Source: Pseudomonas sp. Teo4 (lineage in GTDB: Bacteria; Pseudomonadota; Gammaproteobacteria; Pseudomonadales; Pseudomonadaceae). Taken from it: 64,000 nt of DNA. Below, piece after piece: positions 21,820 through 54,018 of this stretch. A program made the position numbers and the translations under genes. Position 1 is the first letter of the stretch, and every line of letters begins with the position of its first letter. The stretch spans positions 1 through 64,000 of the forward strand of contig NZ_JAXCIL010000005.1 in assembly GCF_034387475.1 (NCBI RefSeq), written 5' to 3'. The notes beneath the pieces are model-generated. The model was not told the DNA's origin. It searched no databases and worked only from the letters and a program-made list of their open reading frames with translations.

Positions 21820-22308
21820 ATGTCCAAGCCTCTGCTCACCCCTCAGGGAGATTTCCCACCCGCTGGCCTGGGCCGGCGCCTGGCGGCGATGTTCTATGAC
21901 TTCCTGTTGTGCACGGCACTGCTGATCGTCACCGCAGGTGCTTACAAGATGATCCAGATGAGCATCATCGGCGAAGCCCGCATGCGCGAACTGACCGATG
22001 CCGGCGCGCTGGATGGCGACCCGCTGCTATCGACGATCCTGCTGTTTGCGTTGTTCGGCTTCTTCGCCAAATTCTGGACCCATGGTGGGCAGACGCTGGG
22101 AATGCAGGTGTGGGGGGTGCGCGTGCAGAACGCCGATGGCAGTGCCATCAGCCTGTGGCAAGCGCTGTTGCGCTTCGTGGTGTCGATTGCCTCTTGGCTG
22201 TGCCTGGGGATGGGGTTCTTCTGGGCACTGATCGATAAGCGCAAGCGCGGCTGGCATGACATCTATTCCGAGACGCAGTTGGTGCGAGTACCCAAACAGA
22301 AGAAGTGA
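21820..22308 (+). CDS. RDD family membrane protein
   Basis: A 162-aa inner-membrane protein. The RDD signature is the Arg-x7-Asp arrangement in GLGRRLAAMFYDFLL; three membrane spans lie at about 24-46, 66-86 and 116-138. A second family feature is GQTLGMQVWGVRV. Specific function unknown. It converges on lptG across the large palindromic element. Confidence 0.85.
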   Translation: MSKPLLTPQGDFPPAGLGRRLAAMFYDFLLCTALLIVTAGAYKMIQMSIIGEARMRELTDAGALDGDPLLSTILLFALFGFFAKFWTHGGQTLGMQVWGVRVQNADGSAISLWQALLRFVVSIASWLCLGMGFFWALIDKRKRGWHDIYSETQLVRVPKQKK

Positions 22309-22340
22309 TATTGGCCGTAGGTGTAGGTCGAGAGGGCTGC

Positions 22341-22584
22341 AGCGCCTGCGAGATCGAGCGCCGCCCGCGCGGCGCATCGCGAGCAAGGCTCGCTCCTACG
22401 TTTGTTTACGGCCAGTAACGCCTATGACAGGCGCGCGCGACCGCCTTGTTTGCACGGCTCGATATTGCGTCGTGCACCAAAGCGTTCGCGCGAAAATCCC
22501 ACAGGAAAAACTGGCCCGAAACAAACGTAGGAGCGAGCCTTGCTCGCGATGCGCCGCGCGGGCGGCGCTCGATCTCGCAAGCGC
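22341..22584. repeat. 240-bp near full-length palindromic element, copy A
   Basis: Outer arms of about 65 bp (22341-22405 and 22520-22584) are nearly identical inverted repeats containing the small hairpin GCGAGCaagGCTCGC. The inner 115 bp are also an imperfect inverted repeat (for example GCGCGCGACCGCCTTG against CAAAGCGTTCGCGCGA), folding around 22462 (ctcgatattgcg). The whole unit can form one hairpin. It fills the 300-bp gap between convergent RDD and lptG genes. The inner part matches copy B in reverse orientation, so it is a repeated element, not chance symmetry. Confidence 0.85.
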
Positions 22585-22608
22585 TACATCACTAAAGCCA
22601 CACCATCA

Positions 22609-23670
22609 TCACCCGGCCCGGCGCAACAGCCACAAACCAGCCACGGCGCAGATCCCTGCCGGGATCACCACCGCCAGCAGCGGCGGGAAGCCGAACACCT
22701 GGCTCGACGGGCCAAGCAGGTCCTGACCGATGCGGAACACGAAGCCTACCAGAACACCGGTGAACACCCGCTGGCCGAGCGTTACCGAGCGCAGAGGGCC
22801 GAAGATGAAGGAAATCGCCATCAGCACCAGCGCCGCGGTCACCGCAGGCTGCAGCACCTTGGTCCAGAACGCCAGCCAGTAACGTGCGTTGTTCAGACCC
22901 TGGTCGGACAGGTAGTGGATGTAGTCCCACAAGCCGGTGATCGACAACGACTCGGGTGCCAACACCACGGTATTGAGCAACTGCGGCGTAACCGAGACAT
23001 CCCAGCGTTCCTGCGGCGCCTTCACCACTTCGGTGTGATCGCCACGGAAATAGGTGGTGCTGACGTCGCTGAGCACCCAGTGATCCTGACTGTACTGCGC
23101 ACGGCGGGCGAAGCTTGAGGTGATGATCTTGCGCTCGTTGTCGAAACGGTACCGAGTCACGCCCAGCAGCAGGCCATTGGGCTGCACGGCGTTGATATGC
23201 ACGAACTCGTCACCCTGACGGTGCCACATGCCGCGCTTGGAGCTTTGCGCCTCGCCCCCGCCCTGGGCCAGGGAACGGTCGGCCTGGGCCTTGTTCTCGG
23301 TAACCGGGGCGACGTATTCGCCAATCAGCAGGCCCACCAGCATCAGCACCAGCATCGGCTTCATCACCGCCCAGACGATGCGGCCGATGGAAACGCCGGC
23401 GGCGCGCATGATGGTCAGCTCACTGCTGCTGGCCAGGCTGCCGAGGCCGACCAGACAGCCGATCAATGCAGCCATCGGCAGCATTTCGTACAGACGGCGA
23501 GGTGCAGTCAGCAGCACGAAGTTGCCGGCCTCCATCACCGTGTAGGTGTCGCTCAGGTCGCTCATCTCATCGATGAAGGCAAACAGCGAGGCCAGCCCGA
23601 GGATGATCCCCAGTACCGCCAGAATGGCCAGCAGCACGCTCTGGCCGATGTAACGGTCGAGCTTAGCCAT
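22609..23670 (-). CDS. lptG: LPS export permease LptG
   Basis: Inner-membrane permease that, with LptF and the ATPase LptB, extracts LPS from the inner membrane and feeds LptC/LptA. 353 aa; membrane spans at both ends (about 9-37, 56-80, 98-120 and three after 265) flank a periplasmic jellyroll domain. The start ATG 23670 overlaps the lptF stop by 8 bases (ATGGCTAA), so translation is coupled. Confidence 0.94.
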   Translation of the reverse strand: MAKLDRYIGQSVLLAILAVLGIILGLASLFAFIDEMSDLSDTYTVMEAGNFVLLTAPRRLYEMLPMAALIGCLVGLGSLASSSELTIMRAAGVSIGRIVWAVMKPMLVLMLVGLLIGEYVAPVTENKAQADRSLAQGGGEAQSSKRGMWHRQGDEFVHINAVQPNGLLLGVTRYRFDNERKIITSSFARRAQYSQDHWVLSDVSTTYFRGDHTEVVKAPQERWDVSVTPQLLNTVVLAPESLSITGLWDYIHYLSDQGLNNARYWLAFWTKVLQPAVTAALVLMAISFIFGPLRSVTLGQRVFTGVLVGFVFRIGQDLLGPSSQVFGFPPLLAVVIPAGICAVAGLWLLRRAG

Positions 23671-52549: not shown

Positions 52550-52822
52550 ATGCCCGCCCGCGAAATTACCATCATCAACAAGTTGGGCCTGCATGCCCGG
52601 GCGGCAGCCAAATTCGTCGGCGTGGCCGGTCGATTCCCCTGCCAGGTCAGGGTCGGCCGAGCCCCCGACAAGATGGTGGACGGTAAAAGCATCATGGCCG
52701 TGATGATGCTGGCGGCAGGTAAAGGAACCCAGGTCCATCTGCTTACCGAGGGCGAGCAAGATGGCGATGCCATGGATGCCCTGGTAGCGCTGATCAACAA
52801 CTTCTTCGACGAAGGCGAGTAA
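52550..52822 (+). CDS. ptsO: Nitrogen PTS phosphocarrier NPr
   Basis: HPr-like carrier that passes phosphate from EI-Ntr to PtsN. 90 aa; His15 in KLGLHARAAAKF is the phospho-site. Last gene of the rpoN block; the large palindromic element follows. Confidence 0.95.
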   Translation: MPAREITIINKLGLHARAAAKFVGVAGRFPCQVRVGRAPDKMVDGKSIMAVMMLAAGKGTQVHLLTEGEQDGDAMDALVALINNFFDEGE

Positions 52823-52850
52823 GCCTTCAGGGCTCGACACAACTCCTTCA

Positions 52851-53092
52851 GCGGTGGCGAAATCGAGCGCCGCCCGCGCGGCGCATCGCGAGCAAGGCTC
52901 GCTCCTACGTTTTTTTCGGGCCAATTATGCCTGTGGAATTTGCGCGCGAACGCCTTGGCGCATGGCTTGATATCGAGTCGTACGCACAAGGCGGTCGCGC
53001 GCGTCTGTCACAGGTGTTATTGGCCGCAAACAAACGTAGGAGCGAGCCTTGCTCGCGATGCGCCGCACGGGCGGCGCTCGATCTCACAGGCG
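52851..53092. repeat. 240-bp near full-length palindromic element, copy B
   Basis: Same architecture as copy A: outer arms 52861-52913 and 53033-53084 with GCGAGCaagGCTCGC, inner imperfect inverted repeat centred near 52972 (ttgatatcgag). Its inner 110 bp match the reverse complement of the inner part of copy A, with scattered substitutions that often keep pairing. It fills the 302-bp gap between convergent ptsO and the ZIP gene; nothing else is seen there. Confidence 0.85.
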
Positions 53093-53124
53093 CAAAAAAT
53101 GTACCGCCTGGCCCTGGACCAAAA

Positions 53125-54018
53125 TCAGGCCATCGCCGTATCCATCACCATCATCAAACAGAACCCCACGCACAGCCCCAAACTCGCCAGCCGATGATGC
53201 CCATTACTGCGCGACTCAGGGATGATTTCCTGAGTCACCACCAGCAACATCGCCCCCGCCGCGCAGGCCAGGCCCAGCGGCAGCAACAGCTCAGCGACGT
53301 TCACCAGCCAGGCGCAAATCACTGCCGCCAGTGGCTCCACCAGCCCCGACGCGGCACCAATCAGAAACGCCTTGAATCGAGGCATCCCCGCCCCCGCCAG
53401 CACTAGCGCGATCACCAACCCTTCGGGCACATCCTGCAAGGCGATACCCATGGCCAGGCTATCGGCATCGGCCATCCCGCCACCGGCAGAAACACCAATG
53501 GCCATACCTTCAGGAATGTTGTGGGCGATGATGGCGATCACGAACAGCCAGATTCGCGCGGCGATCACCGGCTGATGCTCGGAGCCAACCAAGGCCTCTG
53601 GCGAAGCGCCGGAGACCTTGAGGTCGACCAGGAATAGACACAACGCGCCGAACAACAGGCCAAAGCTGATCACGCCGCCAGCACCCCATGGGCTGAACCC
53701 GATGGACTGGGCAGCATCGAGCCCTGGGATGATCAGGGAAAACGCGGTAGCCGCCAGCATCACGCCAGCACCAAAGCCCAGCAGCGTGTCGGCCAAGGCG
53801 ACCGGCATGTTGCGAATGACCAACACCGGTACCGCCCCCAGCGCCGTGCCCAGCGCACACAGTGCACCGCCCTCGAGGGCACGCAACATGCGCGGCTCCA
53901 GGTCTAGCCAGGCGATGCCGCGTGCCACCAGCAACGCTGTGCCGACCAGCAACAGCAAGGTCCCAAGCGCCAGGCGGAACAGGCGCACACTGCTGACAGA
54001 CATCACCTCCGAGCGCAT
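53125..54018 (-). CDS. ZIP-family metal transporter
   Basis: A 297-aa inner-membrane ZIP transporter with about eight spans. Metal-site motifs AHNIPEGMAIG and QDVPEGLVIA are intact, so zinc, iron or manganese uptake is likely. It follows the Mn-type sodA directly and, in P. aeruginosa, the orthologous position downstream of sodM is also a ZIP gene. Start uncertain: ATG 54018 is given; ATG 54003 or GTG 54033 are alternatives. Confidence 0.85.
   Translation of the reverse strand: MRSEVMSVSSVRLFRLALGTLLLLVGTALLVARGIAWLDLEPRMLRALEGGALCALGTALGAVPVLVIRNMPVALADTLLGFGAGVMLAATAFSLIIPGLDAAQSIGFSPWGAGGVISFGLLFGALCLFLVDLKVSGASPEALVGSEHQPVIAARIWLFVIAIIAHNIPEGMAIGVSAGGGMADADSLAMGIALQDVPEGLVIALVLAGAGMPRFKAFLIGAASGLVEPLAAVICAWLVNVAELLLPLGLACAAGAMLLVVTQEIIPESRSNGHHRLASLGLCVGFCLMMVMDTAMA

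Follow-up and report, generated by a model that had tools for sequence, protein, structure and literature searches.

The 64,000-nucleotide stretch of Pseudomonas sp. Teo4 analyzed here (positions 1 to 64,000 of contig NZ_JAXCIL010000005.1, hereafter the window) carries two copies, A and B, of a palindromic element of 285 bp. This element is probably a long doublet of repetitive extragenic palindromic (REP) sequences, belonging to the system of REPs and REP-associated tyrosine transposases (RAYTs) of the P. putida group; it is REPIN-like (REPIN, REP doublet forming hairpin) and of the tail-to-tail ('TT') type, with the GTAG tags of its REPs pointing inward, and its copies appear to have been rewritten at fixed sites. 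Membership in the REP/RAYT system, taken by itself, is well supported. From the sequences at sites shared between genomes we infer that arms and cores have turned over, and two readings of that turnover are live, namely conversion in place and repeated docking.

Structure and copy number of the element

Read from the outside inward, each end of the element consists of a shell of about 32 bp and an arm made up of a GC hairpin and a REP hairpin (GCGAGC-loop-GCTCGC), and the two ends enclose the core (Table 1). The near-identical inverted arms measure about 55 bp each, the left and right shell consensus sequences are inverted copies of each other, and the sequences of both A and B place the GTAG tags on the core side. 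Counted outward from the REP 12-mers, conservation was maintained as far as about position 66 on either side before dropping near background; on the left a weak remainder reached about position 75. The two sides lose conservation at much the same distance, which gives a unit of 285 bp. The first-pass annotation of the window had located both repeats correctly and had recognized a REP-like hairpin in the arm, which is indeed GTAG-tagged. The copies and the conserved core that it described are real; the unit is longer than the proposed 240 bp, and the core measures 127 bp. It had also matched the core of B to the reverse complement of the core of A. Since A aligned better to the reverse complement of B (score 376) than to B as it lies (score 300), the core inversion is real.

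The left half of each copy pairs with the right half over nearly the whole length, as had been proposed, and folding was run on both. The 285-nt strand of copy A, folded as DNA, reached −139.7 kcal/mol (z −19.8), and copy B, folded as RNA, reached −212.9 (z −18.3); in neither case was any of 200 shuffles as good. The core palindrome is imperfect, and its mismatches are conserved and asymmetric. Judged by its sequence, the element could extrude a cruciform and could fold as RNA, and a function at the RNA level, such as a terminator or attenuator, is plausible. A search of the window against Rfam at gathering scores gave no match.

The arm pattern, with up to 3 mismatches allowed, was found 92 times in forward and 90 times in reverse orientation in the 6.5-Mb host genome, compared with 0 times for a backward control pattern. 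The possibility, raised by the first-pass annotation, that the core occurs at two loci only is thereby removed; A and B are two of about ninety copies of a high-copy chromosomal family in this genome. Seventy-one host doublets, lying in 70 sequence stretches, were examined; the core was 126-128 nt in 69 of them and exactly 127 nt in 53. The arms have the marks of a REP, being GTAG-tagged, palindromic, high in copy number and intergenic, and 139 of the 142 begin GTAGGAGCGAGCCTTGCTCGCGAT.

Matches to the element at E 1e-15 were obtained in 17 of 194 genomes (the host's own included, four candidates scored per genome), all from one genus. Among 50 further-examined genomes reached through 50 of 80 lptG loci, 31 had an element match; at most 15 candidates were scored per genome, so that each genome has at least the number of copies counted, and part of the matches were to arms only. 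The plasmid and phage collections searched contained no match to the element. Three draft contigs (G194:C3, G201:C40 and G210:C69) begin or end inside element copies, which seem to break assemblies.

The RAYT gene and related repeat families

The host genome has two Y1-type transposase genes. One of them, at locus L032, encodes a RAYT (NCBIfam REP_Tyr_transpos, 160 bits against a cut-off of 80) that is related to TnpArep chain 4er8_A (E 5e-8). An element copy lies on each side of this gene, giving the inverted flanking REPs by which a REPtron is recognized. The second gene (L031, G000:C1:1370244-1373567) has no element copy nearby.

RAYT loci were then compared in a set of 32, comprising the two host loci and 30 from a RAYT search of the 50 genomes. 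Full-length or near-full elements bracketed the RAYT in the host (L032), in P. taiwanensis DSM 21245 (L161) and in P. putida KH-21-134 (L164). At L165 there were two part matches on each side, at L168 arm-only matches on both sides, and at L162 (a contig end), L163 and L166 one match beside the gene. In total, 8 of the 32 loci had any element match near the RAYT and 24 had none. The bracketed RAYTs include the closest relatives of the host protein (L161, 88%; L164, 77%; L165, 69% identity). A RAYT match was present in 28 of the 31 element-bearing genomes and also in 12 of the 19 element-free ones. The presence of any RAYT therefore predicts poorly, and it is the bracketing that constitutes the evidence.

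The first-pass annotation had named a miniature inverted-repeat transposable element (MITE) or a complex bacterial interspersed mosaic element (BIME) as the nearest idea. That direction was right, but a fitting kind, REP doublets tied to RAYT transposases, had already been described. The element is thus of a known kind, yet neither this exact 285-bp unit nor core flipping was found described in the titles and abstract openings of the open-licence literature searched, and the arm strings were not found there either. The terminal inverted arms and the high copy number would suit a MITE that stems from an unrelated DNA transposon and has long terminal inverted repeats. Given the GTAG-tagged REP hairpins, the bracketed RAYT and the failure to find a target duplication at aligned P. 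taiwanensis sites, we regard such an origin as highly improbable.

A likeness exists in P. putida, for which sections of de Nocera et al. 2013 (PMC3733652) describe degenerate forms of GTAG-1, coupled to an unrelated stem-loop, that border a RAYT-type gene and occur in hundreds of copies. The present arms look like these units of GTAG-1 plus stem-loop, a likeness of textual description rather than of sequence. That account also covers tail-to-tail GTAG-1 dimers (TT dimers) and double-palindrome terminal inverted repeats ('TIRtron' ppf 607), which have in common with the present element the tail-to-tail order and a location between convergent or tandem genes. Spacers there are 20-100 bp in most dimers and, as a rule of thumb, variable in TT dimers; the sections drawn on here mention no shell, core flipping or site-by-site rewriting. 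The REPINs of P. fluorescens SBW25 (Bertels and Rainey 2011, PMC3116915, in part) also consist of two inverted REPs around a spacer, are extragenic and hairpin-forming, and are tied to a RAYT; the element shares with them the defining feature, an inverted doublet of REPs that can fold as a single hairpin. SBW25 REPINs, however, are head-to-head with conserved 16-mers at their outer ends, whereas the GTAG tags here point inward (unit order as given in parts of PMC3733652 and PMC3116915). GTAG-1 singletons in P. fluorescens are described as remnants of head-to-head dimers with GTAG outside. Also unlike SBW25 REPINs, the present element is 285 bp long, has a second GC hairpin in each arm and contains a conserved asymmetric core.

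Other families are set apart by their descriptions, each known to us from part of the source. The R0, R2, R6 and R200 repeats of P. fluorescens (Silby et al. 2009, PMC2718517) are intergenic, several have terminal inverted repeats, and the largest of these families show a tail-repeat-tail bias; they differ in size (R6 measures 177 bp and has 34-bp repeats; R200 measures 320 bp and is described without a structure). E. coli BIMEs (partly PMC2817692) similarly contain inverted REPs with intervening sequence, but form arrays as opposed to the single long units found here.

Shared sites across genomes

Pseudomonas sp. Teo4 is related to P. taiwanensis: the LptF/LptG-family protein beside copy A is 99% identical to that of DSM 21245 (residues 3-362), and flanking DNA averages 89.4% identity at six shared element sites. 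A shared site was defined as an element with both flanks syntenic, and the host, P. taiwanensis, KH-21-134 and LB-090624 were compared. This yielded 24 two-flank pairs, 22 of them with two full-length cores; 18 of the latter involve the host, at 14 host sites. The pairs L001/L127 and L004/L204, with truncated cores, and 27 one-flank rows were omitted from the counts.

At shared sites, shells were more alike than in random pairs (0.748, 0.581 and 0.595 for the three partner genomes, compared with 0.517, 0.533 and 0.526), strongly so for P. taiwanensis (0.748) and modestly for the other two. Cores were not (0.802, 0.863 and 0.848, compared with 0.820, 0.851 and 0.861; 18 pairs). The shells look inherited at these sites. 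Core orientation was the same in 10 of the 18 pairs, inverted in 7 and unclear in 1. Six further pairs between the host and a one-contig genome, obtained with a looser flank cut-off, comprised 4 same and 2 inverted, bringing the inverted cores to 9 of 24 pairs. In the pair L024/L051, the cores match at 120 of 127 positions (94.5%) only after reverse-complementing, while the flanks are syntenic and the shells are 0.81 and 0.79 alike; this is a clean in-place inversion of the core between its arms.

The REP loop also differed between genomes. CTT was the loop in 139 of the 142 host arms and in all 34 arms of P. taiwanensis; GCA prevailed in LB-090624 (29 of 32 arms) and in the one-contig genome (32 of 40), and KH-21-134 had AAA or GCA in 22 of its 30 arms. 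Loop type agreed in all 8 host-P. taiwanensis pairs; at sites shared with KH-21-134, LB-090624 and the one-contig genome (6, 6 and 6 pairs), the host had CTT on both arms and the partner never did. Since loops differ by genome at shared sites, arms have changed genome-wide at inherited sites.

A mosaic was also apparent within the host genome. Mean identity among 53 copies was 95-96% in the arms, 88% in the core and 47-49% in the shell, then 27-30%, and 26% farther out. Left and right shell similarities were correlated (Mantel r 0.246, p 0.0005; 0.176, p 0.0045 once a cluster of similar copies was left out), and the inner core halves predicted each other (r 0.474, p 0.0005), while shells and core parts were uncorrelated (r −0.05 to 0.07). 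Shells also correlated, at 0.449, in the one-contig genome (20 copies). Eight copies (L002, L011, L021, L028, L218, L232, L239 and L241) have unusually similar shells, and some of them appear by eye to be alike beyond the usual boundary, perhaps as a younger burst or a larger unit.

These patterns can be put together as follows. The RAYT would cut single-stranded REPs near the GTAG-tagged hairpin, as has been demonstrated for other RAYTs (PMC8266576, in part), and would have spread the element long ago. Since then, copies would mostly have remained at fixed sites, where recombination or gene conversion anchored in the near-identical arms may rewrite arms and cores and may flip the core. In a bolder and less probable version, the repeat population of the whole genome would undergo coordinated rewriting at fixed sites. 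A shift in the REP loop preferred by the cognate RAYT lineage would lead to replacement of both arms and to swapping or flipping of the core cassette while locus-specific shells are kept, so that the RAYT would act less as a transposase than as a keeper of uniformity that copies onto occupied sites.

Docking-site replacement would read the shells as old landing sites into which REP families with loops GCA, AAA or CTT inserted independently in each lineage and in random orientation. A single step would then account for the inherited shells, the mixed orientation of the cores and a loop type common to each lineage, and parts of PMC3733652 (section 7) report REP dimers regularly lying within longer palindromes in other bacteria. 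We nevertheless consider it unlikely. No free-standing shell was found in 1.24 Mb of loci, a biased sample, and shells as a separate, older repeat were set aside, no convincing case having appeared in these loci. Of 10 shell hits of at least 8 bits away from the arm pattern, 8 border element matches whose arms have diverged, and the other 2 are 121 and 194 bp away from an arm. Moreover, aligned P. taiwanensis sites without an intact copy show, by eye, arm remnants or no recognizable shell, and the near-identical inverted core at L024/L051 favors inversion in place.

Several observations weigh against rewriting of a RAYT-borne doublet at fixed sites. The 18 host pairs fall on 14 sites and are not independent; the equal core similarity of shared-site and random pairs could also reflect saturation under constraint; and three of the four genomes compared are drafts, in which identical arms may cause mis-joins and contigs end at elements. 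P. taiwanensis cores were 0.808 alike among themselves and 0.820 alike with those of the host. Host cores were more alike among themselves (0.869) than across genomes, but the P. taiwanensis cores, not being more uniform within their genome, indicate that homogenization of cores within genomes is not general. In the host, the outer core parts were uncorrelated with each other (r 0.054), and the left outer part was also uncorrelated with the inner core. Decoupling was weaker in the one-contig genome, where the core correlated with the shells at 0.10 (p 0.19) and, for the right shell, 0.20 (p 0.03), and its core halves were not significantly correlated (0.159, p 0.13). Four RAYTs 70% identical to that of the host (L167 and L169-L171) have no element match nearby, and 3 of the 31 element genomes, one of them with 63 element matches, have no RAYT match at E 1e-20. 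SBW25 REPINs are stated, in the part of PMC3116915 concerned, to carry compensatory spacer changes, whereas the core here is without covariation: across the 53 doublets (of 71) whose core is exactly 127 nt long (3339 cells), 2036 were paired, against a mean of 2043.6 for shuffled partners (z −1.4). Finally, no excision product or insertion event was seen, nor a clean empty site with a target duplication at the matched P. taiwanensis sites.

For those sites, 22 of 30 host flanks tested found their place in P. taiwanensis (40 of 139 candidates scored). An arm 12-mer was present in 7 of these 22 loci and absent from 15. Comparison for target duplications rested on the 11 of 22 sites that were aligned, with flanks too diverged or bearing remnants. 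The P. taiwanensis loci L198, L192 and L196 (equivalent to host L017, L018 and L029) contain shrunken elements, down to a shell and one GC hairpin, which by eye resemble palindrome deletions between short repeats.

Gene context and significance

Table 1. Positions of the element copies and their parts in the window.
Feature	Position	Strand	Length	Basis or remark
Copy A, whole element	22321-22605	+	285 bp	Palindrome and conservation boundaries
Copy A, left shell (weakly conserved inverted end)	22321-22352			Positions 35-66 outward in alignment
Copy A, left arm, outer GC hairpin GCGCCGC-CCGC-GCGGCGC	22358-22375			Near-invariant in 31 copies
Copy A, left arm REP, hairpin GCGAGC-AAG-GCTCGC	22379-22399	-		CTAC toward core, i.e. 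GTAG on minus strand
Copy A, core, asymmetric quasi-palindrome	22400-22526	+	127 bp	
Copy A, right arm REP	22527-22547	+		GTAG tag followed by a hairpin whose loop is CTT
Copy A, right arm, outer GC hairpin	22551-22568			Sequence and conservation
Copy A, right shell	22574-22605			Conservation profile
Copy B, whole element, core inverted relative to A	52830-53114	-	285 bp	Sequence and end-to-end alignment
Copy B, core	52909-53035	-	127 bp	

Copy A lies between two convergent genes, of the RDD family (ending at 22308) and the LptF/LptG family (minus strand, stop at 22609), and copy B likewise adjoins convergent genes, for a PTS-HPr protein (ending at 52822) and a ZIP-family transporter (stop at 53125); these neighbors were named by Pfam (RDD, LptF_LptG, PTS-HPr and Zip). 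Two open reading frames of 156 and 159 codons (22256-22726 and 52927-53406) cross or enter the palindromes and could give rise to spurious gene annotations. Gene context was assigned to the host copies by a gene caller based on codon scores, for which 11 genes of the window served as training set. Of the 71 copies, 69 were classified: 31 lie between convergent, 33 between tandem and 5 between divergent genes. As rough controls, 6 of 72 other gaps longer than 20 bp in the same loci and 6 of 41 in the window were convergent. Tandem copies are a median of 27 bp from the end of the upstream gene and 129 bp from the start of the downstream gene. Copies are mostly placed at gene 3' ends, a location bias known for Pseudomonas repeats from parts of PMC2718517 and PMC3733652 (section 15). 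No strand bias of core orientation relative to replication was shown (41 with and 28 against the fork, p 0.15), dif and dnaA having been located for this comparison.

This placement raises the question of whether selection keeps the element between convergent genes chiefly for a function as a bidirectional terminator or as a hairpin at mRNA 3' ends. The convergent copies often fill their gap almost completely. At the lptG site, 47 of 67 relatives have a GCCGACC..GGTCGGC terminator pattern in the RDD-lptG gap (22309-22608 here); both the window and P. taiwanensis, which alone among the 67 has this doublet there, lack the pattern and have the element in its place. A pattern scan of 22250-22650, covering copy A only, found 0 intrinsic terminators (GC hairpin directly before a T run), however, and by eye no T run follows the outer stem, while copies L018, L024 and L027 adjoin an intact terminator (also by eye). 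Terminators were about as frequent at 3' ends facing copies (9 of 95) as in the window control (4 of 32). The 15 P. taiwanensis sites without any arm 12-mer, together with the lack of compensatory pairing in the core, speak against such a role, which we consider unlikely. A functional RNA with a conserved fold was set aside as well, there being no compensatory pairing in the core or in the shell pairs of 31 copies (z −0.8). In RNA, each copy of a REP doublet of this kind would still form one long hairpin at transcript 3' ends, where it might attenuate or protect the transcripts. In other P. putida-group species (L061, L069, L071 and L073), shorter tail-to-tail REP doublets adjoin the terminator after lptG.

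How REP populations stay uniform within a genome while their copies seldom move is, in our judgment, an open question of REP/RAYT biology; coevolution of RAYTs and REPs has been proposed (PMC2817692, in part). Comparing sites that genomes share makes it possible to distinguish inherited shells from arms and cores that have turned over, and the combination of loop type and core orientation offers a testable signature by which conversion may be told from reinsertion. If the RAYT drives the rewriting, a domesticated transposase would have a role at the level of the cell; should ordinary recombination be responsible, the element would still be a natural reporter of inversion and conversion at scores of sites in one genome.
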